Below are positions 29,278 to 56,963 of a DNA stretch of 64,000 nucleotides, piece by piece. The notes below the pieces were generated by a model that was given only the letters and a program-made list of their open reading frames with translations, ran no database searches and had not been told where the DNA came from. Position numbers and translations under genes: made by a program. The stretch spans positions 1 through 64,000 of the forward strand of contig JAVTVY010018717.1 in the NCBI GenBank assembly GCA_036873755.1, in the 5' to 3' direction. The DNA comes from Hanleya hanleyi. Lineage: Eukaryota; Mollusca; Polyplacophora; Lepidopleurida; Hanleyidae. Each line of letters starts with the position of its first letter. Position 1 is the stretch's first letter.

Positions 29278-30215
29278 TACCACCCAAGAGACGTGCTTCC
29301 GCCCGCGTGCAGGATGTCGTAGCGGCGGTTACTGGCAAGCGCAGTAAACGGGGCAGACCATCTTCCCTTTCAGCGCCTAACATCTGGGCAGAAATGAGGG
29401 AGGAGATAATTCAACTATCCACAGCGGCAGCCGTCGCTGCTGCTACACAAGCTGCCACACAAGCTGTTCAAGCAGCCTTTCAGTCTCGATCCGATTCTAT
29501 ACAACAGCCGACATCACTCGCAACATTTAGCCATCCAACTGACGAGGTGAATGATTTAGTCCAACGGTCCGTCATCACGATGACAGGTGAGTCTCCACAT
29601 ATAGTACAACCCCAAGTGGGCGCCAATATTCAGCAGGTCCCCCTTGCGGCACATGTCTCAGGTGAGATTCAGGCAAAAATCAGGGCAGATGAATTTATAG
29701 AGCTACATACACTCGACCCCGATTGGAAAAATCAACCTGCCTACACGTTAACGCTTAGCGAACCCAACAGTGCATCGGATACCAGTGCAGCTTCCCCTGC
29801 ATTGGCTTGGGCTCCAGCAGACCGAAAATAAAAACTTACTTTCGAAAAATGGGCACATTTACTTTCTATCTTCACGGCAATTTACACCTCTCACAAACCT
29901 GACCAACCACCCCACATGATGAAATATATTGAAACGGTTCGCCATATCCACCAGAAAACGGGCGACTGGTTCACATATGACCGTCGTTTCCGACAACTGA
30001 AGTCCATGCAAAACTGTTCCTGGGATTCACTCCAAGGGGAAGTTTATGTAGAGAGTAGATTGGACCGCTTAGCAGAATCACTTAGTGGTCCCGCGTTCAA
30101 ACGTCCATTGACAAGCACGACACAATCGCACCAGTCGCAATCAGTCCCAGCCGGTTACTGTTTCAAATTCCAACTGGTATTCCGCGTGACGCTGCAACGG
30201 TACAGTATGCCACCA
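29278..30215 (+). pseudogene. Gag-like ORF of YR retroelement 1
   Basis: A splice-acceptor-like TATTTTACAG lies just before a start that now reads ATA; the homologous ORF of element 2 has ATG here. N-terminus PPKRRASARVQDVV, Ala/Gln-rich coil, then the conserved region with KWAHLLSIF, GDWFTYDRRFR and DSLQGEVY typical of DIRS/YR gag-like proteins. An in-frame TAA at 29829-29831 splits the ORF; downstream it remains open in the same frame into the RT N-terminus. Confidence 0.7.
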
Positions 30216-30390
30216 TCGATGATGCTATACACCACATCCTCTCAGCAGGTCGGAACTATTTTTTTTTTTTGGCCAAAAAATTTAATGTGCTAGCTGATGC
30301 TCTCCCACGTATACAGGTAGACGAATTCAGACGTCTGGCCCCCGATGCTCAACGGAACCCCAATTTCATCTCGCCACTTCCTGCGTTCCC
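30155..30390 (+). pseudogene. DIRS-type RT/RNase H remnant (core deleted)
   Basis: Contains the start of a DIRS RT (VQYATIDDAI) ending in a T-run at about 30260-30272, directly joined to the RNase H C-terminus (KFNVLADAL...RIQVDEFRRLAPDA). The catalytic RT palm and most of RNase H, normally about 1.2 kb, are absent, so the element is non-autonomous. Confidence 0.7.
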
Positions 30391-30393
30391 CTG

Positions 30394-31266
30394 TTGGAAG
30401 GGCTAGAACATCTCCTACACCACACCCTTGCCCCCTCATCCAGGCGGTCATACCACCGCACGTCGCAAGTTTTTTCAGGTGTTTTGTCACCAGTATCAGC
30501 TCAGCAGCAAGTTACCTCTGTTCATCCCCACCATGGCTCTTTTTATTTCGTACCTAACCTCAAAACAACTTTCGGCTTCCACAGTCACTTCTCACCTGTC
30601 CGCCATTTTGTATGCACACAAAGTTCTGAAATTTTTAGATCTCACCTCCAGTTTTCTGATCCATAACTTACTGCGCACATGTCGAAAATTGTGCCCACCA
30701 AAGGATAATCGTTTACCAATTACGAGGGAAATTCTCCATCGCATTGCCGATGTCCTGCCTTTGTCAATTCCTACCCATTACCACGCTTTAGTGCCTTCCT
30801 GCGTGTCGGCGAAATAGCTTCAAAAGGTCCCACATCAAAGAATTTGCTGCAACTCACGGCAGTTCGTTTCGATCCAGCTACGTCGAACCTTTGCTTAACC
30901 ATCATAGATTTTAAACACACCTCGGTGGATCCGTTCCACCTTACTATCCCAAAATCAGACTCTCCATATTGTCGTCAGAGCGATGCGGGAGTTCATCGAC
31001 AAGCGGGTAATGCTCCAGGTCCATTATTCGCATATCCACCAGCCCTTCCAGTGTCTCAACAGGAATTCACGACCGAACTCCATAATGTCCTGAAGACATC
31101 AGGGCTTCCCGTCGAACACTTCCGCAGCCATAGCTTTCGCATTGGAGCAACTACGGAAGCTTCAGCTAGAGGATTATCTGACAGCCAGATTCGCCGACTG
31201 GGGAGATGGAAATCAGACGCATTCAAGTCTTACATTCGTACAAATTGCGCTATCAATAATGCATGA
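30394..31266 (+). pseudogene. Tyrosine recombinase of YR retroelement 1 (frameshifted)
   Basis: Site-specific recombinase that would integrate the circular cDNA. N-terminal SAM-like region at 30394-30470. Frame changes occur near 30465 and near 30800. The catalytic domain shows the first Arg (FLRVGE, about 30795), HSFRIGA with His and second Arg, LGRWKSDAF and the Tyr in SYIRTN (about 31230). It is about 40-50 percent similar by eye to the intact recombinase at 52473-53369. Confidence 0.82.
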
Positions 31267-31269
31267 AAC

Positions 31270-32030
31270 TTCCTTAATTGGTCCTCGGCACCCAAATCCT
31301 TTTGCGGGTTGCATCTGCTTTGTGTTTCAATTCTATAAATATACAGACGTTTCAACTACTCTAATACGTCAACGCGGGGAATGTCAATGAGCTTCTTGCG
31401 TGCTGCAGAAGCCATATATCGATGACATTAGTAACATCTAATCTCACAATTTCCCCTTTATCCTTTATTTTATTGTGTATTTTGCTTTCTAATGCCTTTG
31501 TATTACTATTCATTTACATGACATTACGGGTTGTAGGCTACACCCAGTTGTCCTCCAGGATGGTTCTGACCAGTTCAGTTTAGTGCAATATGTCTGGAGA
31601 TTACGGGCTGTGTCTCTTAGTCAGACGTCAATATTCTGGTAAACTGTCATTTCAAACGTAGTTGAACCATTCTGGAGGAACATGTGTTTGTGTCCATCTT
31701 TTCCCAGCAAAACCCCCATAAATTTGGGGGGCTGGGTTTTTAATGCGGGGCACATCCCAAGGTGGTAGAGGCACGGAAGGAGGTTGGTTCATTTAGGATC
31801 CCGTCCCAAGACACTCCCTTCTTCTTTTCCATTGGTCGGCTAGGCGCGTACGGATTGGGATCGGGGTTGCCACACGCGAGCGCCGCGAGCGGTGGTGGCG
31901 GTTCAGCCCCACTTCCTTCATTTGGTCTTTTTTGGTCAGCCCCATACTTTCCGTGTTACCAGTTATACTTTAATAAATACGTTTTAGTTCACAAATTTCG
32001 ATCTATTTCTGGTAACACGTACAGCTAAAT
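31270..32030 (+). other. 3' region of YR retroelement 1
   Basis: No coding sequence. Holds an inverted repeat (31551-31566 with 31664-31679, one mismatch), a CCCCC...GGGGG hairpin near 31715 and the GTGTTACCAG/CTGGTAACAC pair near the end. GC-rich stretch at 31830-31920. No split direct repeats were found here. Confidence 0.5.
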
Positions 32031-38252: not shown

Positions 38253-38738
38253 ATGGCGGAGCATATAATATGGGCGTTTCTCAGCTTGACTCCCGAGGTC
38301 TTTCTGCACGTCTATGCGGATAAGGTCGATATCTTGGGGGAGGTGAGAGATATTTGTGATGTGGACCCTACACAACCGTGTCCGGCTCACATTCGTCTGC
38401 CCCGGAAGGGCTGGACCAAATTCAAACGGGTATTGTCTGGTGAACTGGACGGCGACCTCATCCAATTGTGTCATGATGTGTACGTCCGACGCGGCCCCTT
38501 CTTTGCTCAATTGGCTCGACTAGATGGGGGTAGAGTGCATTTTACCCTTCACCCAGTTCTATGGTCTGCATTGGAAGATGCCGTGGCAGATGTGGATCAA
38601 GTGCTTACGAAGGAAGAGCGTTCATCAGACGAGTTGGACTTGTCATTTACCATGGACAATGTGAATCCCAATGAACAAATTATCAAACCTAGCAATCAAG
38701 TGAAGGCAGACGACGAAGCTAATAGACTATCCAGCTAG
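38253..38738 (+). CDS. PC4-like small Polinton protein, paralog 2 (intact)
   Basis: 161 codons. Residues about 15-75 fit, loosely, the ssDNA/transcription-cofactor PC4 pattern: beta strands with VFLHVYADKV, then IRLPRKGWTKFKRVL and DGDLIQL, where PC4 proteins have a Gly/Trp/Lys helix start followed by an acidic 'idxal' helix. The C-terminus (about residues 105-161) is acidic. A PC4-like role (ssDNA binding or late transcription) would fit a virus-like element, but this is inference from pattern only. Not recognised otherwise. Confidence 0.6.
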   Translation: MAEHIIWAFLSLTPEVFLHVYADKVDILGEVRDICDVDPTQPCPAHIRLPRKGWTKFKRVLSGELDGDLIQLCHDVYVRRGPFFAQLARLDGGRVHFTLHPVLWSALEDAVADVDQVLTKEERSSDELDLSFTMDNVNPNEQIIKPSNQVKADDEANRLSS

Positions 38739-38838
38739 ACTCAGTCAACCTAGGATATGTACAACGGTGGTAGGACCCAAACATCATACCTCGTTATAAA
38801 TAAGCTATACTCTCCGGGTCCATCATCATTTTGTCACC

Positions 38839-39852
38839 ATGAAGCGCTGGGAGAAGGTGATGGATAACTTATACCACAGTCCCGACAGTCCTGCTGAGTA
38901 TAGTGCATTGTCGGTTCTCTATCGAGCGGCCAAACTCCAGGGGATACAACGTGCCCAAGTTCGAGATTGGTTAAAAAAACAAGACACCTATACCTTACAT
39001 CGAGCTGCCCGCCGCCATTTTTTACGGAACCGATACATCGTGGGAGGACTAGATGCCCAATGGCAAGCGGATTTGGTCGATATGAGAGCCTTTGCCAAAC
39101 TCAACGATGGGAATCGATCTATCTTGACGTGCATCGATATCCTGTCGAAGTATGCGTGGGTGGTACCCATCCGGACGAAAACGGGGGCGAATCTCATAGC
39201 GGCGTTCAAGGGCATCTTCAAGACCGGGCACAAACCTTTGTATTTGCAAACCGACGAAGGCACGGAATTCCTCAACAGACCGTTCCAAGCCTTTCTCAAG
39301 AAATATAAGGTCTTCTTCTTCCATACGTACAACGAGACCATGGTTTCCGTAGTGGAAAGGTTCAACAGGACATTCAAAGGTCGCATGTATAAATATTTCA
39401 TCTATAAAAATACAAGACGGTACATCGATGTTCTCCCGAAAGATATGAGTGGTTACAATCGAGCCTATCACCGGAGTATACAGAGAGCCCCCATCACCGT
39501 CACCCAACGAAATGAAGCCCAAATCCAGCGTGTCTTGTTTCCCAGGCAATCACAGCGAACGCCGAAGGAGGTGCTCAAGGTCAGGGACCCTGTACGGATC
39601 AGTAAAGTCAAAGATCAATTTGAGAAAAGTTACATGCCCAACTGGAGCGATGAGCACTTCCTAATTAAACGGCGCCTAGCCCGACAGCAGCGAGTCTACG
39701 AACTGGAAGATCTTCAAGGGGAACCGTTGCTAGGGACGTTTTACGAGATGGAATTACAGCCTGTCGTAAAAACAAAGCAAGAATACTACTCGATGGAGCA
39801 GATTTTGAAAACGGAACGTCGACGTGGCAAACTGTTTCATTTCGTCAAATAG
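38839..39852 (+). CDS. INT: Polinton retroviral-type integrase with truncated chromodomain
   Basis: Integrates the Polinton DNA. 337 codons open. The N-terminus (residues 1-75) is an all-helical DNA-binding region without HHCC finger. The rve core follows, with D in WQADLVDM, D in QTDEGTEF and E in VVERFNRTF (DD-35-E-type spacing). An SH3-like segment leads to a C-terminal chromodomain start, YYSMEQILKTERRRGKL (about 39786-39836). TAG at 39850-39852 interrupts it; in the same frame the typical second half (WPSSFNSWVAANQV, about 39859-39900) follows and the frame continues to 39993. The core is intact, so the truncated product might still have catalytic activity. Confidence 0.9.
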   Translation: MKRWEKVMDNLYHSPDSPAEYSALSVLYRAAKLQGIQRAQVRDWLKKQDTYTLHRAARRHFLRNRYIVGGLDAQWQADLVDMRAFAKLNDGNRSILTCIDILSKYAWVVPIRTKTGANLIAAFKGIFKTGHKPLYLQTDEGTEFLNRPFQAFLKKYKVFFFHTYNETMVSVVERFNRTFKGRMYKYFIYKNTRRYIDVLPKDMSGYNRAYHRSIQRAPITVTQRNEAQIQRVLFPRQSQRTPKEVLKVRDPVRISKVKDQFEKSYMPNWSDEHFLIKRRLARQQRVYELEDLQGEPLLGTFYEMELQPVVKTKQEYYSMEQILKTERRRGKLFHFVK

Positions 39853-39968
39853 CAAGTCTGGCCCAGTTCCTTCAATTCCTGGGTCGCGGCCAACCAGGTG
39901 AAACGACTATCAAGCCAGACACCACCACCATCATCCTTCATTCCACGTTCGCCCATGAACACGGTGCT

Positions 39969-40103
39969 ATGGACAAACAGCAGCTGCCTCTGAACACAGC
40001 GTCTCTCAAAACGCGCAAAGCGCAAGTGGGCTTTGTGGTGACATTGTTGAGTGTGTTATATGGGGGTGTTTTACGACGTGGCCTATCTCAGCACTCTACT
40101 TAA
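39969..40103 (+). CDS. Hypothetical 44-aa protein with one hydrophobic segment
   Basis: ATG at 39969, overlapping the end of the read-through integrase frame. After a polar N-terminus (MDKQQLPLNTASLKTRKAQ) it has one hydrophobic stretch (VGFVVTLLSVLYGGVL) and a short basic end. Small membrane ORFs occur at similar places in Polintons; expression is unproven. Confidence 0.35.
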   Translation: MDKQQLPLNTASLKTRKAQVGFVVTLLSVLYGGVLRRGLSQHST

Positions 40104-40424
40104 CCAACCTAGGACACCAGCCGCGAGTGCAGATCAGACAAATGTACAGACTTTGTCTACACCAGTCAACCCTTCTCATCGAGCGACCACCACCACACCA
40201 AGTGTACAATCCACATCGAGCTCCACACCGAGTATACAGTTTAGGTCAACACCTACACCAAGTACTGCAGGGCCCACTACGTCTGAAAACCCTCCGGATT
40301 TCATCACTCACAGTGAACGCCCATCGACAACGGCGACCGACGTTGTTGTTGTACCCACCACCCCAGTTCACTCGTACCAAATTTACAAGAGCGGGTCACC
40401 ACGACAGCGGATACACCTCCAACC
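40104..40424 (+). other. Thr/Ser/Pro-rich open stretch before the ATPase
   Basis: Open in the frame starting at 40051; encodes low-complexity TTTTPSVQSTSSST-type sequence. It contains a first copy of CTAGGACACCAGCCGCGAGT (about 40109) that is repeated inside the ATPase P-loop at 40471. Probably the remnant of a separate small gene. Confidence 0.4.
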
Positions 40425-41103
40425 ATGGACCCCCGGTGGCAACATACCTTCACTTGCGTCATCGCAGGACCTAGGACACCAGCCACGAGTGCAGGTCAGC
40501 TCCGGCAAGACGCCCTTCGGCAGGAAGCTCCAACACGCCGACAACATGATCACCCCACTCATTTCCCGGGTCGTGTGGTGTTACGGAGAATGGCAAGCGG
40601 CGTATGCTGCAATGCCCCACATCACGTTCGTGGAAGGCCTACCCGACCTGGCCGATTTGGAACTGGACACTTTGGTGGTCCTCGATGATCTGATGGCGGA
40701 GACGGACAGTCAGGTCACCCAATTCTTTACCAAAGGCAGCCATCATCGACGCCTCAGCATCATCTATATCGTCCAGAATCTCTTCAGTAAAAACAACGAA
40801 CATCGAAACATCACCTTAAATGCCCACTACCTGGTGGTCCTCAAAAACCCCAGAGATACCACTCAACTGCTGCTCCTAGCGAGACAGATGTACCCTGAAC
40901 GCACTGCGTTTGCGTTGGAAGCCTTTAAAGATGCGACAACCCCTCAGCACGGGTATATGCTCTTCGGCCTCAAGCAAGCCACCCCGACCACCTTCGACTA
41001 CGGACCAGTATCTTTCCCGGAAAGACCCACCACGTGTACATGCAAAAATAATGTAAACACACCCATAGTGGCTCCCCCAGCTGGGGTGTGTGCGTTTGAT
41101 CAT
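40425..41103 (+). pseudogene. ATPase: Polinton FtsK/HerA-type genome-packaging ATPase (P-loop split)
   Basis: Packaging ATPase of the A32/FtsK class. The first codons (MDPRWQHTFTCVIAGP, from 40425) lead into the Walker A motif. There an insertion of about 28 bp, a near copy of sequence at about 40109, separates AGP from SSGKT and shifts the frame. The rest is open: VVWCYGEWQAAY, the Walker B strand DTLVVLDDLMAETD (about 40670), the sensor-like YIVQNLFSKNNEHRNI and LVVLKNPRDTTQL, to about 41040. An AATAAA follows at about 41109. Confidence 0.85.
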
Positions 41104-41215
41104 AGAGATAATAAAAGAATTAATACAACATCATGGTTGATTTTTGTCTCCGTTCAATATTCACGAGGTATGTAGATAAAAAGTGCAGGGTTGTGGGTTC
41201 TAGCATTAGTTGTAC

Positions 41216-41542
41216 ATGATGTCTGCGCGAGTACGGAAGCACGCTCCGACGCTCCGTGTATTGAAGACGGCCTCACCCGAGTTGGTTCGAACCATTGTAC
41301 GCGGTGCGGACCCTGACCATGTACGCTGTATGTGCGAGATCGGGTATAACATGTTAAAAGGCAACGTACCACTGACTCCGATTCAGAAGACCAAGTTGGC
41401 CAAGCATAAGACAGGTCTGCGAACCCTAGTCCGGAAGCGAGTCTCTCAAACACAAAAGAACAAGGTTTTACAGAAAGGCGGCTTTCTCGGGGCCATCTTA
41501 GCACCGATGGCCGCTTCCGTGTTGGGTCCAGTATTGGGCTGA
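41216..41542 (+). CDS. Small basic Polinton protein with Gly/hydrophobic C-terminus
   Basis: 108 codons. The N-terminal half (about residues 10-50) is a helical domain (ELVRTIVRGADPDHV). A Lys/Arg-rich segment (KLAKHKTGLRTLVRKRV) follows, and the end (GGFLGAILAPMAASVLGPVLG) is an amphipathic, glycine-rich helix. Small proteins of this build recur next to the capsid genes of Polintons and recall the membrane-active or core peptides of adenoviruses; that parallel is inference. Three bases separate it from the next ATG. A frameshifted copy lies at 62765-63102 on the - strand. Confidence 0.7.
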   Translation: MMSARVRKHAPTLRVLKTASPELVRTIVRGADPDHVRCMCEIGYNMLKGNVPLTPIQKTKLAKHKTGLRTLVRKRVSQTQKNKVLQKGGFLGAILAPMAASVLGPVLG

Positions 41543-41544
41543 CA

Positions 41545-42386
41545 ATGAACCACACGAAAAAAATGGTCCGCGTCGAACCTCGGCTCCTTCAAAACCTCCA
41601 ATCACCGTACCCCGTACCGTCTACGGTGAAGACGATAAACACACTCGATGAAGAGATGCGTCAGATCTTACAACGGCCGGGGTTAAGCGACAGTGAGAAA
41701 GTACGACAGTACAATGAAACGCTTCAGCGGTACATGACGTTCATGGACCAATATAAAATCCTCTCTACCCCAGCAGCAGCACCACCACCACCACCACGCG
41801 ACACACCACCGAACTCAGCACCACTCCAACAGCCGCCATTACCAGGGGTACCACCCGCAGCCCCACAGTGGGTGGAAGACGAAGTCCTGAAGAGTGTACC
41901 TGCACCTTTCAAGAAACAAGCTGGCCTGGTATCACAACGGGTGAAACAGAATCCTAACATGACTTGGAATGATAAAGCGAACTACTGGTACAGAATCAGG
42001 TGGTCCCCGGTACCCATATGACGGATATAGTGAATGACCTGATGCGTCAACGCAGGTCGCACACGGATCCTCGAGGATGGGAGGTCGTCGCTCAAGGCTT
42101 GAAAGACATGCATGTACCACAGAAATTGGTGGGGAACCCCCAGCGCTGGGCCTGGAATGGGCTGCTGGGATGCAGCGTGACTCGCCGGTGCAGACTCCAC
42201 AACCTTGGGAAGCCGAGTAGGAACCGGAGTCACCCCCCCCCCAAAACACCACAACGGCGGGCACCTACTGTTTCACCCCTTTTACCACGCCACCCCCTGA
42301 AACTACGTCCATCAAGATCTATGACACGTAGCAAGTCATCGCGACCATCACGACGATTAGCGCCCAAGGTCTGGGAGAAGTATTAA
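41545..42386 (+). pseudogene. Conserved Polinton structural protein (frameshift)
   Basis: Starts MNHTKKMVRVEPRLLQNLQ. A helical region with RPGLSDSEKVRQYNETLQRYM (about residues 35-60), a Pro-rich linker, then a domain ending in MTWNDK (about 41985), where one base is lost. The second half continues in another frame: VVPGTHMTDIVNDLMRQRR, PRGWEVVAQGLKDMHVPQKLVGNP and a basic tail to about 42386. The homologous gene on Polinton 2 (61985-62764) is uninterrupted and shows the normal length (259 aa). Function unknown; position suggests a capsid or core component. Confidence 0.78.
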
Positions 42387-42419
42387 ACCCGGGAGCAGCA
42401 GCAGGAAAACTCAGTCGTC

Positions 42420-43207
42420 ATGTTTTGCCTCACCCTACCCAGTAACCGTTCGCTCGATGTGAATCCTGACAACACCTTGACCAAGAACGTGACCCAGTTA
42501 CCGCAACCGTTGCATTTACCTGGACGCTGGGAATGTGGACTCGTGGATATCCAATACCTTTACTCGTGGTACAACGTGCGAGCCGGTGAAGTGTGGGACG
42601 AGGTGGCCTACGAAGGACAAGAAACCCGACTCACCCTACCCGAAGGCAAATAAGATACCCCAAGGGATTCATGCAAGGACTGAGAAGTCTGATGCATTAT
42701 AAGTCTCTACGGGACGTCACGATTATTTCAAAACCCATAAAAACCTTTCCCTTCAAAAATCGGGTGGACTTCGATTACAGTGCACACAACGACAAGGCCT
42801 GTCTCACTCTCAGCTCCAACGGGAGTGTCGAAATCAGTCCTACCCTACAGCAAATGCTGGGTCTCGATCTACAGGGGTACGCTGGCCTCACCGGAGAGAC
42901 AGCCCACATCACGATGGACATGCGTGGTGGTATGTATGGCCTGTACATCTACTCAGACATGGTCAATGCACATATTGTCGGACACAGCAACGTACCTCTA
43001 CTACGCGTCTGCCCGGTGAAAGGCAAGTATGGAGATCAAGTCATCCACAGTTTCAAGCACATCGTATATCTACCGGTCAGTCAGACCGATATTAGCTCCA
43101 TCATGATCGATATAAGAGACGACACCGGTCAACCGATTGCATTCGAGCGTGGGAAAGTGGAGCTGACACTTCATTTCCGTCAAGTCCGAGCGGTTCACTT
43201 TGCATAA
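42420..43207 (+). pseudogene. mCP: Polinton minor capsid protein (penton-like, frameshift)
   Basis: Starts MFCLTLPSNRSLDVNP, then WECGLVDIQYLYSWYNV, matching the start of Polinton minor capsid (single jelly-roll, penton base-like) proteins. The frame is lost near 42650 after LTLPEGK. The rest continues from about 42655 through QQMLGLDL, GMYGLYIYSDM, VIHSFKHIVYLPVSQTDISSI and ELTLHFRQVR to TAA at 43205-43207. The stop overlaps the next start as TAATG. Forms capsid vertices in the family. Confidence 0.82.
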
Positions 43208-43592
43208 TGAAGGTGCCTTACGAGTGCGATGCTCGAAGCTATATGAACTATTATGCCCAACAGGCCGGGGTAGCCTTCCAGTCTTTGCAGGTACACGCAT
43301 GCAGAACATACTCGGGAGCATCTTTAAACCGTTCCTGCCCTTGGTGACGCGTGGGGGCAAAGCAATCGGCAAACAAGCGGTACGCAGTGGACTGCAAGTC
43401 GCCGATGATGTCTTGGTGGGTACGGCTCCCAAAGAAGCACTGAAACGCCGAGCTAAAGAAGCAGGAAGCGTCTTGGTCGCCAAAGCACAACGCACCGTAG
43501 GGAATAAAAGACCTGCACCACCGAGACCACGCACCAGTCGACGACCGACCCAGCGACGACGCACATCGAAGACCCAGGATATCAGTTCTTAA
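43207..43592 (+). pseudogene. pX/VI-like small basic Polinton protein (one frameshift)
   Basis: ATG at 43207 within TAATG. N-terminus MKVPYECDARSYMNYYAQQ, then a one-base loss in a G-run near 43270. In the other frame follow LPVFAGTRMQ, GGKAIGKQAVRSGLQVADDVL, KRRAKEAG and an Arg/Pro-rich tail ending at 43592. The homologue at 60910-61302 is open throughout the common part. Proteins with this layout are widespread in Polintons beside the capsid genes and resemble adenoviral core/cement peptides (inference). Confidence 0.75.
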
Positions 43593-43594
43593 AT

Positions 43595-44959
43595 ATGGCT
43601 TTCATCCACGCCGAGTCCTGCCCCTCCACCAACAGTGAATTTGATTCATGGACCGTCCCACCTACTAAGACCAGTGCAGAAGAGGGCCAATGGGGTGAAC
43701 ATATCCCCCTTTCCAGCATTACAGTAACAGGCCCCATTGAATTCACCATCACCAACGCTGATACGACCTACCTGGATTTAGCACATACGTACCTGTACGT
43801 GAAAGCTAAAATCACCAATAAAGATGGGCCTGTCCTCAAAGCAGATGCACCCGTGGGTCCAGTGAATCTCTGGCTTCATTCGCTATTCCAGCAAGTGGAT
43901 ATATCGCTCAGTGATAAACTGGTGAGCCCATCGACGAACACGTACCCGTACCGAGCCTACATCGAAACACTGTTATCCTATGGGTGTGACGCTAAAAAGT
44001 CGTATTTGACAGTCCCGCTGTTCTACCGAGATACCCCAGGCAAGATGGAAGCGAGTTCCGATAATGACGGCTATACGAAGGAATGAATTTCACAGCAGTC
44101 ACTCGGTCGATATGATGGGACGTCTGCATGCGGACTTATTCATGCAGGACCGACACCTCTTGAATGGAGTACCTGTCAAAATACGAGGTCAGTCTGTTTG
44201 TACGCAAAGTGAAACTGAGCCCAGGTGTACAGTTGGGGCACATCAGAGCCTTGGAGAAAAGACCAGCCCAGTACCCGATTCGACGAGTACAGACCAAGGT
44301 TTTTTCCGTCCCAAGAGGGAATATGATTGTCAATCAAGAAAACCTGTTCCTGGGGAATTTGCCCAAGCGTTTAACCCTAGCCTGTGTGGGGAACGTCGGT
44401 TATAATGGGGCTATCTCGAGGAATCCGTTCAACCTAAATACGTTCAACATCAATTTCGTGGCCCTGCATGTGGATGACCAACAGTTCGATACGTCATGTA
44501 GGAACTATTGTCTGTGTCTTTGTGTCGTTGAAAAGGCACTTGTCTAGACACATTGTTGTCCCCAGACTTAGCTATTGTATGCATTATCTCGTGATTCTTA
44601 CATAATATATGAACCGGCCAACAGGTAGCGGCACGGCCCTTACAACCTAACTTCGGAACGGCCAATTACATCCGGAGCTATCTGGACCTCTTCACAGCAA
44701 CTGGCCAAATCAACCAAGACGAGGGAAATAGGATCAGTCGGGAGGACTACGCGAACGGATACACGTTGTTCTGTTTCGATCTCACGCCCACCTTAGACAA
44801 CGATCATCAACTGAGTCTCGTCAAGAAAGGCAACTTACGCTTGGAACTGCATTTCGGGAACATTTACCGCGAACCATCAATGTGATTTGCTACGCTGAGT
44901 TTGACAACATTATTCAAATCGATAAAAGCCGTAACGTCCTGTGTAATTACGCCATTTAA
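43595..44959 (+). pseudogene. MCP: Polinton major capsid protein (double jelly-roll; several frameshifts and a small insertion)
   Basis: ATG at 43595, two bases after the previous stop. The first 163 codons are open (HAESCPSTNSEF, PIEFTITNADTTYLDLAHTY, LFQQVDISLSDKLV, YPYRAYIETLLSYG). The frame changes at about 44085 and again near 44165. A third segment (44164-44505) carries RALEKRPAQYPIRR, VFSVPRG and LPKRLTLACVGN. About 120 bp at 44507-44628 look foreign. The last part (ANYIRSYLDLFTATGQINQD, GYTLFCFDLTPTL, LRLELHF) runs to about 44960 with one more frame change near 44870. Forms the trimeric hexon-like capsomers. Confidence 0.85.
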
Positions 44960-44960
44960 C

Positions 44961-45353
44961 ATGGATACAGAGCAGATTACCGCCGTGCTGCGAAACGATC
45001 CGTGGGCACGGACGGTCTTTCAAGGGGTGTTCGCCCGAGATGTGTTCTCATTAGACCGTGTGTATCCTGCTGCTTACGTCCTGAATACAGACCCGATGGA
45101 TCGGCCTGGTCAACACTGGGTGGCCGTGTACTTGACAGAACAGCATGGCGAATACTTTGATCCGTACGGCCTACCACCCCTCCAACCCGATTTAACAGAC
45201 TTCATGGATCGAGGCACAGACACGTGGTGTTGGAATACTAAAACGTTACGAGGACTCTTGAGTTGTGTATGCGGACAGTACTGTGTGTTTTATCTCACTC
45301 ACCGGAGTCGGGGACATTCCATGCAGACGATCATCCACATGTTTGACGAGTAA
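44961..45353 (+). CDS. PRO: Adenain-type cysteine protease of Polinton 1 (intact)
   Basis: 130 codons from ATG 44961. Processes capsid precursors in the family. Catalytic signature in order: His in GQHWVAVYL (about residue 54), the acidic residue in EYFDPYG (about residue 68) and Cys in CGQYCVFYL (about residue 107), with the C-terminal helix after it. Length and motifs fit Polinton/adenovirus maturation proteases. This is one of the few undamaged genes of the element. Confidence 0.88.
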   Translation: MDTEQITAVLRNDPWARTVFQGVFARDVFSLDRVYPAAYVLNTDPMDRPGQHWVAVYLTEQHGEYFDPYGLPPLQPDLTDFMDRGTDTWCWNTKTLRGLLSCVCGQYCVFYLTHRSRGHSMQTIIHMFDE

Positions 45354-49045: not shown

Positions 49046-49819
49046 CACTTGACTGTAGGCTGTCCTTTTGGTCTGTATGCTATAGGCTGGCTGGTATAGA
49101 TCCTTACCCTCCGAGTGTCTCAGATCGTCTGGCATATTGGCAAAATTTCTGCCTTTTATAGTGCTGGGTTGCTAACCAGTTGCCAAGCCAATGACGTAAA
49201 ATTATACGGCTGAACGAAAATGCCGAATTTTGATTGGTCAATAATTACAATTCCGCAAACGCGGTGACGTAATGTTCTCGACAACTGATGCAGCCGGCAA
49301 GCTGAATCGAAAGCGCACTTTACCAAAACGCATGCTAGCCTATTTCGAGGCAAAAATTATACAAAGTTCCGATGAATCGTTGACAGAACCAGATATCATT
49401 CGAAAGCCTATATCCTGAACTTTCCATGGATATAATTATATTCCAAAAAGAACACATTATAGACGAAGATGGAAAAGTTGTCTCTCCTGAACTTGCACGA
49501 GACATGTGCACGGAAAACTACATGCAAAATTAAGCATGTTTTTCACATCGCATCGGCGGAAACAAATGCCGATCTAAGGAAAAATACTACATCTAAGGCA
49601 GCAATCTGGCTAGCAAGGTAAGCCTAAACAATTATATTTTCAATGAATGCCAGGATTAATTAACGATTTTCCATCACGACAAACGAACACCGGCTAAACA
49701 AATATGGCGGCTATACGAAGCTCGAAGTCAGAAAATATTGTCCAACTTCCAAAATCCATCTCTCGACAACCAGAACGTCTTATGTGCTGACAGTTCATAA
49801 CTAAATCGTAAAATATATA
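49046..49819. other. Unassigned sequence with CCAAT/CRE-like motifs
   Basis: Contains two TGACGTAA sites (about 49191 and 49264) and GCCAAT/ATTGGTCA motifs near 49185 and 49233. No gene can be linked to them; significance unclear. Confidence 0.35.
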
Positions 49820-50340
49820 TACTTCCTAAGGGGTCACGTCCAATTTTGCCTACTTTCCCGTGTTCGATCATATTGGTTAAGACTGGATAGAGCTATTGTG
49901 ACGTTTACCGAACTGAAGCTATTCCCCTCACCCAAGATGCCTCCCAGTGCAGTTGTGCCCTGCATTGAGCAGGAGGGGCTGTTCCTAGAGCTGTGTTTGA
50001 TATGACAATCTGTTAGCCTACAATGATAACTGCATGCATCACAGGCTGGGGCTGAGGTATCCTTATTTCAGCCTTCATTATGCTAGCTGGTCGAAAGGAA
50101 TGATACATATTTGAGTCAAATTGAATTATAACGCAGTGAGTGTTGGCAGTCACTTCTCTCTGATTGCTGATATGGCAGATTTGAAATAATTTTGCTTTAT
50201 TACTAAATTCATCAACCCATTTATTAGCCCCGGTCAGTGATGTTGGGGTCTGTACAGAGACGCTGTGCCGACCCTGTCAGTTGGCCTGTATCACATAGGT
50301 CGTTGGGCTGATTGTCATTTGTTACCATCTCTGGAGGTGG

Positions 50341-50663
50341 ATTCCTGAATGGGTCCAAGTATTGGATGATATTCCATTTGTTTAGAATGCTCAGTTAGAG
50401 GCATTCAGCTATATTGTGTATGGATTCCTGAATGGGTCCAAGTATTGGATGATATTCCATTTGTTTAGAATGCTCAGTTAGAGGCATTCAGCTATATTGT
50501 GTATGGCTTCCTGAATGGGTCCAAGTATTGGATGATATTCCATTTGTTTAGAATGCTCAGTTAGAGGCATTCAGCTATATTGTGTATGGATTCCTGAATG
50601 GGTCCAAGTATTGGATGATATTCCATTTGTTTAGAATGCTCAGTTAGAGGCATTCAGCTATAG
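50341..50663. repeat. 83-bp tandem repeat, about 3.9 copies
   Basis: Units start at about 50341, 50424, 50507 and 50590 with ATTCCTGAATGGGTCCAAGT; virtually identical except an A/C change at the third start. Recently homogenised. Confidence 0.9.
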
Positions 50664-51185
50664 TATTATCTCCGTTGATCACTCATACAAGCACCCTGAA
50701 GGTAGAAATCAACATGTACAAGCCCTGTATTACAAACCGAAGGGTTACAGGTGTTGTTGTTGTATGGGGGGGACACAGGTTTCATATATGGCCGCATTTC
50801 ACTGGTTCATACCCACTCAAGATAACATGGATAGAGATGAGAAAGTTGTGTGAATAAAGAATAGGGTATTTTTATGTGCCACGCTTTTGATTGCTGGTCC
50901 ATTTGTGGGACATATAAGATTACATGTACCAGGCCATGTTATTCTGAATCCCTGTATGGTTTTAATTTAACTGTACCAAAGTTAATTGTATGCATAGCTA
51001 ATGTTATGCTGTAGATGACACCAACATATGAGATTGTCTAACTCTGACATAATTCATAATGACTTAGGTCATTTTAACCCCCCAGTCGCCCCCCCCCCCC
51101 TGTTCTCACCTGTAAGCACACACATCCTGATGCTGGGAGCTGTTTTTTAATGCATGGCAAACAAAGCATGGTTTATTTTACAGCA
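50664..51185. other. Unassigned sequence before the gag-like ORF
   Basis: Ends in a poly-C run (about 51088-51101), a possible donor (CACCTGTAAGC, about 51107) and a splice-acceptor-like TATTTTACAG four bases before the gag ATG. A spliced leader-type 5' UTR is possible. Confidence 0.4.
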
Positions 51186-52181
51186 ATGCCCCCCAAACGA
51201 AAGTCTGCATTGAGGGTTGCAGAGGTGGTAAGCGCCGTCAAGTCGCCCAGGGTTGCAGTGCGACGGGAATCCACTCGGGCTACAGATGGGTCCAACATAT
51301 CCGAGTTGTCGCCGATAACCCTGCTGAATATTGCTCAGCAAGTGGAATCGAACATTTTGCCACGTTTGACTGAACAAATTAAACTAGCTGTAGAGTCCTC
51401 TGTTACAGCAGCCATTGCACAGGCTCTTTTACCTGGTATCGTATCACAATCTGCTGCAGCCAACTACGGGGTTGGGACAAATTCTGTTGCAGAATAGGAT
51501 AATGCTGGGGCCAATATGGTTACAGGGGAGGGTGTTCCTGAGAATCCCCCAGCTGTTGCTGAAGTGGTTACAAATAATATTACAGGAATATCCGCTGTAG
51601 GTGAGTGCCCACCAATCATTCCCATCCAGGAAATTGAAGAGCTTAAGACCCCTCCGGTTACAGCAACTATTCCGGTTTATTCCACTGTTTCGGACAAGTT
51701 GAAGGAGAAAATTTGGGCTAGCAAATTTATAGAATTCCGACTGCTGTTGGAACCTCGTGATCAGGAGGCATATACATTGCGCTTGAATGACCAGGACGGC
51801 AATCCTGCCCTGACTTGGTCACGTAAGATGCCCAACTCTAAGAAATTCATGACAATGAATGACTGGCTAACTTGCTGGAATCGGTTTTCGGCCATTTACC
51901 TTCTGAAACACCCTGCATGCGCAGACGGTCTGGCAAAGCATTTTGAGGTGGTTCGAGACCTTTTCGGGGGGGATGGCAAGTGGTTCACGTATGATGAATC
52001 ATATCGTTATGAAATTGCCCAGGGCAGGTGTGCATGGGGTCAGCCGCATACAGAGCTGTATGTAAAATCTATTATGGTAACTAATAGGTCCTTCCGTCGT
52101 CCTCAGCAAGGTACTACAACTAAGTCTCCATATTTGCCACATAACTTTGCTGGAATTTTATCCGATTATCCTTGCAGTTGA
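51186..52181 (+). pseudogene. Gag-like ORF of YR retroelement 2 (one stop)
   Basis: ATG 51186 starts MPPKRKSALRVAEVVSAVKS. An in-frame TAG at 51495-51497 splits an otherwise single frame to 52181. Downstream conserved parts are KIWASKFIEFRLLL, WLTCWNRFSAIYLLKHP, GDGKWFTYDESYR and HTELYVKS. Same architecture as 29278-30215. The last codons run past the point where the RT domain should begin. Confidence 0.75.
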
Positions 52182-52479
52182 AGTTTGGGGGGCCCTCCTA
52201 GCCAATAAGTGTATCACTTTTCATACAGATAACCAAGCTCTGGTTAGTATTATTAACAATCAAACTTCTAAGGATAAAAGTATCATGTTTCTTGTGAGAA
52301 AACTTGTGCTATACTGCCTTCAGTGGAATATACTTTTTCAGGCCTCCCATGTTGCAGGCTATAACAATTCCTTAGCCGATTCTCTCTCTCGACTGCAGGT
52401 ACCCAAATTCAAACGCCTGTTGCCGGAAGCAGACCCGTTTCCCACAGCTATACCTCCCCTTCCAGCTTTGCCATGCTAG
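52147..52479 (+). pseudogene. DIRS-type RNase H C-terminus, RT core missing
   Basis: Open 110 codons: LEFYPIILAVEVWGALL, CITFHTDNQALVSIINN, WNILFQASHVAGYNNSLADSLSRL. These are the second half of a DIRS RNase H (Asp in TDNQA, His and Asp in HVAG...LAD). The RT domain that should precede it is deleted, joining it to the gag-like ORF at about 52110-52147. The stop overlaps the recombinase start as ATGCTAG (52473-52479). Confidence 0.8.
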
Positions 52480-53369
52480 AAACTAAGTTGCAGAGCCTTC
52501 TTACTAGTGCGCTAGCAGCCACCTCGGTTAGAGCTTATAGACGTGCCTGGGCCATTTATCATGCATTTTGTCAGGAATACGGCATGGAATATTGTATTCC
52601 GGTCAAGGCTTCTCAGCTGGCATATTTTGTGGCATACTTAGTGTCTCAAGCGTATGCTTCTTCGAGTATCACTTCCTACCTATCAGCAATTAGTTACGTA
52701 CATAAATTAAATTCCCTTCCTGATCCAACATCTTCTTTCCTCATTGGCAAGCTCCTTCTAGGATGCCGGAATTTGTCTACGCCTGCTGATGCCCGGTTAC
52801 CGATTTCTAAATCTATTTTGCACAAGCTAGTTCTGGCTCTTAGCCACACAACATCTTCACTATTTAAGCGTCGCTTGTATCAAACCATGTTTTTGTTAGC
52901 ATTTCATGCATTCCTTCGGATTGGAGAAATGACAGTATCCTCTCACAATTTGCATTATTCTCAAGTCGCGTTTGTTGGGTCAGATTCGCTTATCACTTTT
53001 CAGAACTATAAGCATTCCGGTGGAAAGTCATTTCAATTGCGTGTCTGTGGTCAGAAGTCAACTTTGTTCTGCCCGGTTCATGCTTTAAAGTTATACCTAA
53101 ACTTAAGAGGCCTATCTCCTGGTCCTATGTTCGCTTACCCACCTAACCGTGGCATCGGTCGCAAGGAGTTCTGTCGCGAATTGAGGCGAACTCTGGTCTT
53201 CGTGGGTTTAGATTGTTCACGGTTTAAGTCGCACAGCTTTAGAATAGGTGCTGCTACGGCGGCCGCTGAGGAGGGTTTGTCCGACAGCCAAATTCGGCAG
53301 CTTGGCCGCTGGAAATCTGACGCATTCAAGATTTACGTTCGCCATTCCCTACGCGTATCCGCTTTATAG
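52473..53369 (+). CDS. YR: Tyrosine recombinase of YR retroelement 2 (intact)
   Basis: 298 codons, uninterrupted. N-terminal core-binding region (residues about 1-100: ATSVRAYRRAWAIYHAFCQE, ITSYLSAISYVHKL). The catalytic domain shows Arg I in AFLRIGEM (about residue 149), His and Arg II in HSFRIGAA (about residues 251-254), LGRWKSDAF (third conserved position Trp) and the nucleophile Tyr in IYVRHS (about residue 289). Cuts and rejoins DNA to integrate a circular cDNA in the DIRS/Ngaro group. The ATG lies inside the stop of the RNase H frame. Although the RT is gone, this enzyme looks functional. Confidence 0.9.
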   Translation: MLETKLQSLLTSALAATSVRAYRRAWAIYHAFCQEYGMEYCIPVKASQLAYFVAYLVSQAYASSSITSYLSAISYVHKLNSLPDPTSSFLIGKLLLGCRNLSTPADARLPISKSILHKLVLALSHTTSSLFKRRLYQTMFLLAFHAFLRIGEMTVSSHNLHYSQVAFVGSDSLITFQNYKHSGGKSFQLRVCGQKSTLFCPVHALKLYLNLRGLSPGPMFAYPPNRGIGRKEFCRELRRTLVFVGLDCSRFKSHSFRIGAATAAAEEGLSDSQIRQLGRWKSDAFKIYVRHSLRVSAL

Positions 53370-53456
53370 TCTTTGCGAGGTGGCTGAGTGCATTGTCAGT
53401 GGGTTATCTGAATGGTCGTTTTGCAAGGACACGATACAGCAACTGTTAAGTTCACG

Positions 53457-54271
53457 GTCTGGTTATGGGTTCATGCCAGATTTGTCCCACCAGAAAGGTC
53501 TGCAGATACAGAATGTCATTATGAAACTTTGTTCTAGTTAGGTTTGAGCCTTAGTTAATGTGTTTGATGGGTGATGGGTTCATGCCAGAGTTACATGTAA
53601 CTTACATATACAGGGTTTTGATACGAGGATCAGTGCATAAAATTGTTGGTAGCATGCCTGGCGATAGGTTCATGCCAGGATTACGAGTTTGCTACTCATA
53701 CAAGGAAGAACTGATAATTACGGGTTTCTGTTTAGTGCATAAATTGTTTGCAGCTTATCCCAGTGTCTGGTTATGGGTTCATGCCAGACCCCCTTTTTGG
53801 TTTGCATAGCATGTATTTCGGATCCGATCATGGGTTCATGTCGGGTCATATTGTTCTGGGTACTTTGTGTTGTTACTTGTAGGAGAGAAATGGTTTCCGA
53901 TTAATTTCTAACTATAGCTGGGGCTAATTGTATTTACTTGTTGGGAGTGATTCGCAACTCTAAGCTAGTCAACAATCGTTGATGGTCATGGGTTCATGCC
54001 ATCATTCACTATTTAGACTTGTCAAGTTGGATAGCGTGTATTTCGCATTGCAGGGTTAGTTTGGGTTACCATATAAAGCTTGCAGTACAGGGGCATTCCG
54101 ATCATGGGTTCATGTCGGATCATATTGTGGCTGGTACTTTGAATTGTGTTATACAACAGAAATGGTTTCGGAGTGTTTTCTAACTACAGCAGTAGCTAAT
54201 TATGTTGACTTTTTGTGAGAAACTCAATGCTCTAGTTAGCAATCATTAATGGTCATGGGTTCATGCCATTA
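53457..54271 (+). repeat. Array of eight hairpins with constant apical 13-mer and covarying stems
   Basis: The 13-mer (variants of TCATGGGTTCATG) occurs at 53463, 53572, 53662, 53771, 53828, 53986, 54102 and 54253. It is flanked by complementary arms in seven of eight copies: GTCTGG/CCAGAT, CCTGG/CCAGG, GTCTGG/CCAGAC, GATCCGA/TCGGGTC, TGATGG/CCATCA, TCCGA/TCGGA, TAATGG/CCATTA. Copy 2 (53572) has lost its stem. The apical part can itself pair as CATG-GGTT-CATG. Spacing 57-153 bp. Lies between the recombinase gene and the terminal repeats. Confidence 0.88.
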
Positions 54272-54370
54272 TTTGCTATTTAGCCTTGTTAATAATAAGC
54301 AAATTTGTTCTTTTCCTTGGGTGCAAGGATCAATTGTATATGCCTATGCAGTTCAAAGAAAAAGCATGGC
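53821..54370. repeat. Diverged tandem duplication (about 274-bp unit) carrying hairpins 5-6 and 7-8
   Basis: Units from about 53821 and 54095 share CATATTGT..CTGG.TACTTTG, GAAATGGTTTC, TTTCTAACTA and the two hairpins each. An older, shorter duplication (AGTGCATAAA.TTGTT) relates hairpins 3 and 4. Confidence 0.75.
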
Positions 54371-54451
54371 ATCGACTATGTTGCACTTCTCATTCTGGAA
54401 GTTTTCCACATTTGGCGTAGTTTTTTCGCTGTGTGTGTATCGGTCTTTATT

Positions 54452-54510
54452 ATGGGGCTACCTCCCACAAAGTCTGAAGGACATGTGGGAGGTGGTGGCG
54501 CGTAGCCCCA
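54452..54510. repeat. Long imperfect hairpin at the B1 repeat start
   Basis: ATGGGGCTAC...CTCCCAC pairs with GTGGGAG...GTAGCCCCAT across a short loop, straddling the start of the B1 repeat (54489). Confidence 0.7.
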
Positions 54511-54731
54511 TTTCATGGCTGATATATAGACATATATATTTACTAAACACTAAAGTTATCTAATTTATAGTATGGTACACATTCTTTACCTTCGCGGTTC
54601 ATTTGATGTACACCGCGTTATCATGAATATAAACCGTCACACAGTGGCCTAAGATCTACGCCATTCAATGTGTTTGTATTATTCCCTTTAACGTATTCCT
54701 TTTATTTATTCATCAGGGCTAGAACATAAAT
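54489..54731 (+). repeat. Direct repeat B1 (243 bp) of YR retroelement 2
   Basis: Starts GAGGTGGTGGCGCGTAGCCC and ends GCTAGAACATAAAT. Repeated at 55063-55305 with about two mismatches. Direct repeats enclosing an A2 segment at the 3' end are the layout of Ngaro/PAT-type YR retroelements. Confidence 0.88.
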
Positions 54732-55062
54732 TCGATTTACACCTCGAGTGTAAATTTATTTATGGGCATAGCGGGTCAAACCGAGTTAGCTCCCCTGCTC
54801 TAGCTCCCGCGTCTTTTCGGTTGCTTGGCGGATAACAGACGAAAACTTGAAGCTGTTCTTCTTGTGTGCTCTGAAGATTCAACGGTATATCCTTTAAAAA
54901 TTAAGTTTATCACCCGCCTCCGTCCCCTTAGCCCCTCCTGGCTTCCAGCTTGGGTAGTGTGATTGAATGATAATTGTATTGTTTCTTTTTGAATTTCTGG
55001 CTCTTTTTCAGGTGACATCAGTCCTATCGGTTGTGTTCCCAGCCTCCTTGGAGATCGGATGA
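54732..55062 (+). repeat. A2 segment (331 bp) of YR retroelement 2
   Basis: Sequence between B1 and B2. In Ngaro/PAT elements a copy (A1) should form the 5' end; none was seen between 49400 and 51190. Confidence 0.6.
54735..54755. promoter_or_regulatory. Palindrome at the B1/A2 junction, candidate recombinase site
   Basis: ATTTACAC-CTCGA-GTGTAAAT: two perfect 8-bp arms around 5 bp, four bases after B1 ends. Tyrosine-recombinase crossover sites commonly have inverted arms around a short core; assignment here is inference from position. Confidence 0.45.
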
Positions 55063-55305
55063 GAGGTGGTGGCGCGTAGCCCCATTTCATGGCTGATATA
55101 TAGACATATATATTTACTAAACACTAAAGTTCTCTAATTTATACTATGGTACACATTCTTTACCTTCGCGGTTCATTTGATGTACACCGCGTTATCATGA
55201 ATATAAACCGTCACACAGTGGCCTAAGATCTACGCCATTCAATGTGTTTGTATTATTCCCTTTAACGTATTCCTTTTATTTATTCATCAGGGCTAGAACA
55301 TAAAT
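55063..55305 (+). repeat. Direct repeat B2 (243 bp) of YR retroelement 2
   Basis: Second copy of 54489-54731; its end coincides with the start of unrelated sequence (ACTTCCTAA and the MITE), so it probably marks the element's 3' terminus. Confidence 0.85.
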
Positions 55306-55314
55306 ACTTCCTAA

Positions 55315-56963
55315 GGGGTCACGTCCAATCGATCGAGACGGTTTCTCGATAAACGAGTAAAACCGATAAATATCTCGTCTCGAAGGGTCCCGGTTTATCT
55401 CTATCGATTGTTGTCCCGGTTTGCTCCCGGTTTTCTCTCGAAGTAAAAGTCCATCTCGATCCCTCTCGAAATAAATCGACTTGCTTCGAGAATGGAATCG
55501 AGATGCCTTCAAATGAAGGTTTGAACCATTCGGAAGGCGTATCCTCGCACTGTTACTTATCTGTGGCAGCGAGACTAATCTCGGCGAGTACATATGCATT
55601 AAGCCATGAATAATGAAGTACATTAAACATGATTCTTTTAACATTATTTTGTTTTTTCGTCTCCAGATCTGTAGTCGCATACTTGCTCTGGCAGCGCAAT
55701 TTTTATGTATGGAAAGGAAATAAAATCACCAATTGAATTACATAAGTTGGCTCATTATTGGTAAGTGTAAATTATTTCGAACCTGTTGTAGAATTTGAAT
55801 AACTTTATGAGATATGTCCAGGAACTGCGAATTGAAATAAATTCTACAAGTCTGGAATAAAATTCCATATGTTCTTCTGAAAGTATATCAGAATGGGAGA
55901 TTTTCGTTGATATTACTTATTTGATAGGATCTTGACTAGGATCTTGATAGGTTTATCAACATAAACGCGCGATCGAAGTGTTTGAGCATTCCCTATATGC
56001 TTTGCTCAATGACAATTAACACGTGATATTGTTGTAGTAAAATGTACATGAACGTGGATTTAAAGCTTCATTGCACTCTGAATTTGGCGCTAACTACTTT
56101 CATTATTTGATTAATTTGCTAGACACATGAAACTAACAATAAATAATAGAACGTGAGTATTTTATCAAGCCCCGCTAAATGTGTTTTTCTCCCCAGTTTT
56201 TCTTTCAAAGTAATTAACCCCTCTGTCTCTTCGCTGTTGTTTCAAGCCGACGGTTTTCACAGACCGAATGTGGTGAGAATTATCAACACCTCTAGTACCG
56301 ATTGTCATTAATTCCGCCAACCTCTACCAGGCAAGCTTATATGAGAAACAAACTTTGTTGATATAATCTCCTTACTTGAACTATATCTCAAGACAGTAAT
56401 TCTCAGTAAAATGAAATCTGCAATGAATAATTCAAAACTATAAAACGAATTATACACCGAGATTAAAACACCGGTCAAACACTTCATTTTGCGGTTGAAA
56501 CGATCCATGTTTGGTTTTAGAACAATTTTATGGAACAATTATTATCGAATGATTCCAAATCATTATTATTCAGATTATATCCAGTTGATGTGTCATTTAT
56601 TCCGCGCCGAATATTAGTCAGATATAATTTATATGGATAAATGAAATGTTTTCTTTCAATTGGATTCAGGAAACATCATGAAGATCATGGATATATCGAT
56701 TTTAGGCTGCGATATACTTATAGAGCGATCGCCCCCAAAATATGATACAAAAAACGGACATACAAACCGGGACCCCCTTCGAGATTACCGATCAATTTCG
56801 AATCCATCTCGAAAACCGGAACGTTTCGATCGAGATAGAACCGGGAGCAAACCGGGAGACGTCGTCAGGGGTCCCGGTTCTGCTCTACAGGTTTCAGCCG
56901 AGAAATTTCTCGACCCATCTCGAAGGCATCGAGAAATTGCCTCGATTAATTGGACGTGACCCC
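55315..56963. mobile_element. Harbinger-like MITE (1649 bp, TAA target duplication)
   Basis: Terminal inverted repeats begin GGGGTCACGTCCAAT and end with its complement. Both ends are flanked by TAA (55312-55314 and 56964-56966), the 3-bp TWA duplication of PIF/Harbinger. Subterminal regions on both sides are rich in CTCGA and CCCGGTTT motifs and are imperfectly inverted over about 200 bp. No transposase frame; non-autonomous. Confidence 0.75.

Follow-up and report, generated by a model that had tools for sequence, protein, structure and literature searches.

Arrays of bulged hairpins behind the tyrosine recombinase of Hanleya hanleyi retroelements, with apices that differ between clades and may mark the element RNA

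We found that a tyrosine recombinase (YR) retroelement of Hanleya hanleyi carries an array in which a clade-specific apical key stands on lower stems that change and stay complementary, and that this array is kept, in whole or in part, in copies without genes. The bulged-hairpin structure with its covarying lower stems is strongly supported. The sequences suggest that the hairpins may label the element's RNA for recognition by proteins that the element itself encodes. We give about even chances to the more specific proposal that the array acts in cis as a recognition site in RNA, with a zinc-finger Gag as its most likely binding partner in selective packaging.

The window, that is, the whole stretch of 64,000 nucleotides that we analysed, contains the following parts of this element:

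51516..52181, + strand: Gag-like ORF with an internal deletion, junction near 52140
52183..52479, + strand: last part of the RNase H domain, in a different frame; start position approximate (compared with the L025 ORF)
52473..53369, + strand: YR ORF, 298 aa (Pfam Phage_integrase 7.3e-6, homologues)
54452..54511, + strand: long hairpin at the B1 entry, ATGGGGCTACCTCCCAC / GTGGGAGG...GTAGCCCCAT (folding)
54486..54731, + strand: B1 repeat, 98.8% identical to B2
54732..55059, + strand: A2 segment, with a full or partial match in 8 of the 20 loci searched
55060..55305, + strand: B2 repeat; the sequence after its end is unlike the window in L019, L024 and L027

The YR scores 26.3 with Phage_integrase, just under the gathering score of 27.1, and homologues back the assignment: a protein search returned 664, the closest named ones among the 120 matches listed being 44-45% identical and from Littorina saxatilis. 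Its full-length genomic matches at 97-100% number 11, counting the window's own. Through the internal deletion the window copy has lost the zinc fingers of Gag together with most of RT/RNase H. Relative to L025, the same junction occurs in L019, L029 and L024 (four copies including the window); since the window, L019 and L024 are unlike one another after B2, they represent separate insertions. Three copies with a YR (L022, L025 and L027) encode a Gag with two Cys/His motifs, CFPFHRGLKCSSGKSCKYQHKCCNCGEMHPLLKC, which we take to be a CCCH finger and a CCHC-like knuckle. In L025, RT and RNase H also lie in an open frame (RVT_1 2.4e-8; RT_RNaseH 2.5e-4, under its cutoff), and the Pfam matches of its 551-aa stretch up to the YR start include no methyltransferase domain.

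According to the parts of two papers available to us, Ngaro elements have the order A1-[ORFs]-B1A2B2, a YR and no methyltransferase (PMC9210276, PMC8547959). The window element shares with them the B1-A2-B2 order, RT and RNase H, the YR and the lack of any methyltransferase domain found; it differs in that clades I and II (and III, with two hairpins) hold hairpins between YR and B1. Upstream of its genes, the window element has no A copy, and A-like pieces lie upstream in L030 and L032, apart from the left end common to gene-less copies. DIRS1-like elements are defined, in the portion of PMC3266345 at hand, by a methyltransferase domain and inverted terminal repeats; here we found no such domain, and the inverted repeats within 50000-56500 are short (73-88%). 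The element fits an Ngaro-like YR retrotransposon.

Several other observations concern the ends of the element. A 26-bp direct repeat flanks the window copy (49819-49844 and 55304-55329) and resembles a long target-site duplication, which YR integration would not be expected to leave; at the left end we found no A1. Tandem repeats with a period of 83 (about four copies, 50255-50662) occupy the 5' region, as they do in L019 and L029, and an A-repeat piece lies inside inverted repeats of ~140 bp, 99% identical, at L030 1001-1443. The long hairpin at 54452-54511 (ATGGGGCT...AGCCCCAT) extends from the final part of the array region into B1, and is possibly a terminator or an RT-related structure. 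Similar closing stems fold in L059, L060, L062, L063 and L064 (clades I and III), and the B2 entry is without its left arm.

The array itself comprises eight hairpins (53456-54271) between the YR stop and the B1 repeat, beginning 86 bases past the stop:

53456..53482, + strand: hairpin 1, GGTCTGGT.T.ATG.GGTT.CAT.GCCAGATT; arms kept in 14/14 complete rows of the copy alignment
53566..53590, + strand: hairpin 2, GGT.G.ATG.GGTT.CAT.GCC, weak arms; sole copy without 5-bp arms
53656..53680, + strand: hairpin 3, CCTGGC.G.ATA.GGTT.CAT.GCCAGG; ATG in 13/16 complete rows
53765..53789, + strand: hairpin 4, GTCTGGT.T.ATG.GGTT.CAT.GCCAGAC; L030 and L031 have TCGGAC, G-U paired
53821..53847, + strand: hairpin 5, GATCCGAT.C.ATG.GGTT.CAT.GTCGGGTC; inner pairs gone in the gene-less subfamily
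53980..54004, + strand: hairpin 6, TGATGGT.C.ATG.GGTT.CAT.GCCATCA (alignment of copies)
54097..54119, + strand: hairpin 7, TCCGAT.C.ATG.GGTT.CAT.GTCGGA (alignment of copies)
54247..54271, + strand: hairpin 8, TAATGGT.C.ATG.GGTT.CAT.GCCATTA; compensatory to hairpin 6

A sequence-only reading of this region had described eight copies of a 13-mer, seven of them with arms of 5-7 bp, and we could confirm this description. The copies and variants start at 53463, 53572, 53662, 53771, 53828, 53986, 54102 and 54253; seven have 0-1 mismatch (four are exact), and the eighth, at 53662, has three. With up to two mismatches there are 12 matches in the whole window, 7 of them in the array, where shuffling of the whole window gives a mean of 2.19 and a maximum of 6. 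Adjacent arms of 5-7 bp are present in 7/8 copies counting G-U and in 6/8 by Watson-Crick pairs alone, copy 53572 with its 2 bp being the exception in both counts. Across the window, a 13-nt gap is bordered by such arms at a background frequency of 0.0076. When the right flanks were permuted among the eight copies, seven armed copies were reached in 12 of 40320 orders, a figure to be read with the array copies being partly tandem duplicates and therefore not independent.

The compensatory changes claimed from the sequence, TGATGG/CCATCA versus TAATGG/CCATTA and CCTGG/CCAGG versus TCTGG/CCAGA, are present as stated, and so is the change of T-G to T-A in another pair of copies. The apex had been proposed to pair again as CATG-GGTT-CATG; it does pair, but as ATG-GGTT-CAT and with one base bulging from the 5' strand. 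The refined architecture consists of a variable lower stem, one 5'-strand bulged base, an ATG/CAT upper stem and a GGTT loop, which replaces an apex drawn as an open 13-nt loop. Conservation of structure rather than sequence applies to the lower stem, but not to the apex, which is conserved in sequence within a clade. As a whole, the interpretation of selection for structure is supported. In two tandem units, 3/47 hairpin sites were changed compared to 40/151 other sites (p 0.0017). Rfam returned nothing above threshold for 50000-56500; its three sub-threshold matches had E values of 1.7 or more, and none was an IRE.

In the 2.48-Gb assembly (52,793 contigs), TCATGGGTTCATG occurs 222 times compared to 47 for the reversed control. 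We examined 40 stretches around listed matches, part of these 222 places. A 13-mer equally frequent without paired arms had been named as an outcome that would refute the sequence-only reading, and these loci show the opposite: arms of at least 5 bp accompany 45/49 exact 13-mers in the window and the 17 stretches with array homology, and 0/24 in the 23 stretches without it (17 distinct flanks). In an alignment of the window with its 17 copies, most of the hairpins are paired in the majority of complete rows (8 to 17 of 18 rows per hairpin), and the differences consist of T or C as the bulge base, G-U versions and changes in single copies. Hairpin 2 is weak in all rows and hairpin 5 has lost its inner pairs in the gene-less subfamily; single hairpins are therefore dispensable, which counts against the array as a recognition tag. 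Hairpin sites were less changed than the remainder in 11/11 comparisons between copies (for example 9/184 versus 130/892). The p value was below 0.05 in eight of them and 0.052-0.072 in the other three, the comparisons sharing copies among them. In the 6.5 kb of L025, which begin inside gag, the apical motif occurs eight times, always within the array. L038, a decayed YR fragment with overlapping 13-mers, was set aside without any claim of hairpins.

The array is also kept where the genes are gone. L020, L021, L026, L028, L030, L031, L032, L040 and L056 have array homology, and the stretches examined match neither gag nor pol nor YR. The match to L025 starts at its position 3076, where the YR ends, in L020, L028, L030, L032, L040 and L056, and at 3202 in L031. 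Judged by the apical pattern, these seven loci contain 5 to 8 hairpins, while L021 and L026 contain only the 3' half of the array. A non-coding leader with its left end at L030:1549-1564 is common to L030 and L020, L028, L031, L032, L040 and L056. Such retention in gene-less copies fits any role in cis.

The genome contains 133 YR matches, and we examined 35 further 3' regions (10 + 10 + 15), among which L061 and L066 were Ia copies. Families whose YRs are 41-66% identical have other arms and loops on the same bulged-hairpin architecture. In Ib (YR 61-66%), the six hairpins of L059 follow CTCTGAT.C.ATG.GGTT.CAT.ATCAGAG, part of them with different arms (shuffled mean 0.54, maximum 3), and L060 also has six (shuffled mean 0.7, maximum 4); the window UTR gives eight strict-form matches (shuffled mean 1.17, maximum 4), six of which are array hairpins and two are not. 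Ic (YR 41-53%; L062, L063, L067, L078, L085, L088) has GCATGAT.C.ATG.GACT.CAT.ATCATGT and similar hairpins with GACT, GATT or AACT loops and, once, an ACG/CGT upper stem. Since the strict count in L062, L063 and L067 is only two per UTR (shuffled mean 0.28-0.41, maximum 3), the evidence there lies in the common motif and not in the number. The 1-nt bulge is fixed in place and strand across Ia, Ib and Ic.

In the sister YR clade II (39-44%; L069, L070, L071, L073, L084) the apex of the array differs, with a 2-nt bulge, an NAG/CTN stem and mostly a YNNNGC hexaloop, as in GAAGAG.GT.CAG.TAATGC.CTG.CTCTTC. Here the upper stem covaries as well (CAG/CTG, TAG/CTA, AAG/CTT), and loop positions 1 and 5 are pairable (19 C-G, 5 U-G and 1 other, n=25). 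Single-sequence folding gave the expected form in 3/7 typed examples and a variant in the other four. Clade III (YR 43-48%) is characterised by two hairpins, GCTTCT.T.GC.GGGCT.GC.AGAAGC and GGAGAT.T.AC.GGGCT.GT.ATCTCC. Both are found in 6/9 UTRs and one in L079, and neither is unaltered in L082 or in a second element of the window.

This second YR retroelement, at about 29250-31270, is damaged, has a Gag-like ORF and belongs to clade III by its 3' motifs; the loop is altered in one of its hairpins, and the other contains a G-U pair. Elsewhere in the window, at 38253-45353, an integrase ORF (rve) lies among other ORFs that look to us like a Maverick/Polinton.

Other relatives are without an array. 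By eye, L072 and L086 (YR 41-43%) have at most one candidate hairpin; L081 and L087 (43-47%) have none of the three keys in their 3' regions; and the 3' screen revealed no recognisable array in L074, L075, L076 and L089-L093 (32-38%), the 3' region of L075 being full of satellite-like repeats. A search of the contigs of other genomes gave five loci, titled as bins of symbionts and other bacteria, and in one of them, L006 (Escarpia symbiont bin), no array was seen in the 3' part. Viral contigs, searched by YR protein, alignment and hairpin pattern, yielded no relatives outside the genome; five had one motif each by the hairpin pattern and, by eye, none had 5-bp arms.

A 20-row YR tree places the array-bearing families together in a fork of 13 rows with support of 100/98; clade I is supported at 95/94 and clade II at 99/97. 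This fork also includes L102 and L107, with at most one hairpin, and L006, with none seen; outside it are the array-less L104, L105, L106 and L108, plus L007. Hairpin type tracks the YR tree. Furthermore, 6/8 array-less 3' regions (L074, L076, L089, L091, L092, L093) have by eye an ORF with a G[SD]S...Y-type motif after the YR, which was not seen in L075 and L090. The five such ORFs scanned (L074, L076, L091, L092, L007) match Lipase_GDSL_2, all under cutoff (E 1.2e-6 to 0.006), and those of L074 and L007 are 43% identical. The array sits after the YR, in the position that a GDSL/SGNH-like ORF takes in array-less sister families. For Xenopus Ngaro-like elements, the available part of PMC9210276 reports an SGNH domain.

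The pairing of the arms was assessed on rows picked by the apical motif alone, over five positions and with 2000 permutations of the right arms. The 82 distinct clade-I hairpins (174 instances) were paired in 375/410 cells (91%) compared to 72% when permuted, so that the arms of other copies and families do vary while staying complementary. The second outcome named as refuting the sequence-only reading, arms that vary without complementarity, was thus not seen either. Clade II gave 102/125 (82%) versus 64% with 25 distinct hairpins, and clade III 91/150 (61%) versus 47% with 30, which include clear non-hairpins. In none of the three clades did any of the 2000 permutations reach the observed value.

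For covariation in clade I we used an alignment (A4) of 62 of the 82 rows, typed by hand without a formal rule, the 20 omitted being mostly single-copy variants. A separate alignment (A2) of 20 hairpins picked by choice is biased towards pairing and carries no weight here. In this set 88.4% of cells were paired versus 72.8% in shuffles, with 114 double-changed cells versus 43.0, and slid structures paired at most 49.6%. With 25/25 rows, clade II gave 83.0% versus 71.6% and 39 double-changed cells versus 17.0 (slid at most 50.8%). Double-changed cells and score are above shuffles in both clades, the rows being related and not independent events. The number of pairs with any double change was not above shuffles in clade I (186/500), and in clade II neither this number (45/500) nor further pair types (82/500) were clearly so. 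Over lower pairs 2-5 of clade I the raw count is 23 G-U versus 8 A-C. After collapsing it becomes 15 versus 7 (p 0.067), which leans to the sense strand and is not significant, and clade II gives 8 versus 5 (p 0.29).

How might such an array work? It would lie in the 3' untranslated part of a sense transcript, if, as we infer, this stretch is transcribed. A protein of the element itself, most probably Gag with its pair of zinc-finger motifs, would read the apical key in the RNA, and several hairpins together would make a high-avidity tag. Consequently, only element RNA, including that of non-autonomous passengers, would enter the particle where reverse transcription happens, and distinct keys per YR clade would keep coexisting families apart. 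An element-encoded reader seems likelier than a host reader because the keys differ among families in one genome; Gag would be the best candidate, given its fingers and given that gene-less RNAs must be selected at packaging. On the other hand, the Gag of L007 has a similar finger motif and its YR groups with array-less families, so that fingers alone do not predict arrays. L006, L081, L087, L072 and L086 have a YR of the array clade or of similar identity, yet the array is absent. Moreover, retroviral packaging signals are usually located 5' and not 3'.

The CTE of simian type D retroviruses is an export-type RNA element read by a host protein, and the array might similarly act in nuclear export, stability or translation of unspliced RNA. 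Its place past the last ORF and before the terminal repeat, and its retention in gene-less copies, would suit such a role; however, one host protein would not be expected to read apical keys that differ among YR clades of the same genome, and the unarmed 13-mers at the 23 loci without array homology (0/24) also speak against it, so that we regard this explanation as unlikely. A folded RNA tag bound by the YR or by RT/RNase H, for cis-preference or RT priming, would share the support for Gag packaging, and the key does follow the YR phylogeny. Priming would require one site and not eight, and we consider this explanation distinctly unlikely, even if nothing in the present evidence separates such a tag from one read by Gag.

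Integron attC sites are folded DNA targets of a YR, each mobile unit carrying one of these single-strand recombination sites. Hairpins folding in single-stranded cDNA, as YR targets or as guides of cDNA circularisation, would resemble them in principle by their bulges and sequence-variable arms, and would account for a key type that tracks the YR. Recombination of Ngaro-type elements is expected in the A/B repeats, however, and the eight hairpins lie outside them, which speaks against an attC-like site. The raw excess of G-U over A-C, not significant after collapsing, is also in the wrong direction for first-strand cDNA, making this role improbable in our view. A purely mutational origin, with quasi-palindrome correction or template switching pairing the arms and gene conversion homogenising a functionless 13-mer, could draw on the partly tandem nature of the array, since such mechanisms yield paired changes. 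Nevertheless, the bulge should then vanish rather than stay constant from Ia to Ic, G-U pairs persist, hairpins are less changed than their flanks, and conversion tracts would need to end at the arms; this explanation is already disfavoured and very improbable. Double-stranded sites for a regulator (enhancer or silencer) would explain the conserved apical core and the palindromic look, but not lower stems that covary instead of keeping their sequence nor a strand-specific bulge, and we find them hardly probable at all.

Returning to the array as a packaging tag, its closest parallels are protein-bound RNA hairpins. The MS2-type coat-protein operator has a lower stem, one 5'-strand bulged base, a short upper stem and a 4-nt loop. 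The hairpins described here share these features and the presence of several related hairpins per RNA, and differ in the pyrimidine (or G) bulge, the ATG/CAT stem, the GGTT loop and the clustering after the last ORF; coat-protein binding belongs to the MS2-type system, and the array is a putative protein site known from sequence. Retroviral psi hairpins have GACG or GGAG-type tetraloops that the zinc knuckles of nucleocapsid recognise; here, too, tetraloop hairpins occur beside a zinc-knuckle Gag, and the differences are the up to eight copies, the 3' location, the bulge and the loop. The iron-responsive element has a CAGUGN loop and a C bulge 5 bp below. It shares with our hairpins the 5' bulge and, with the clade II hexaloop, a possible loop 1-5 pair; a 3-bp upper helix instead of 5, the 2-nt bulge and the lack of CAGUGN set clade II apart from this class. 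With dispersed packaging signals the array shares several hairpins with a common apical motif and variable, covarying stems, on what would be one RNA (on these signals and the MS2-type operator, see PMC4751978 and PMC6281560).

The sequence-only reading knew of no equivalent in DIRS/Ngaro elements, and in the open-access literature searched (titles and starts of abstracts, most subscription papers lying outside it) we likewise recognised no description of hairpin arrays in them. The words 'hairpin' and 'stem-loop' occur 0 times in the available text of PMC3266345, PMC9210276 and PMC8547959.

Altogether, we see an even balance of probability for an RNA address code, in which a lineage-specific apical key would coevolve with an element protein and gene-less passengers would survive by keeping the array. 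To our knowledge, how DIRS/Ngaro-type retrotransposons choose their own RNA has not been described. The array provides a candidate cis element that is delimited, has an internal control in the gene-less copies and offers two, perhaps three, natural specificities in one genome. Direct tests of RNA selection and of its coevolution would need short RNAs and one protein, and the array may yield new orthogonal hairpin-protein pairs.
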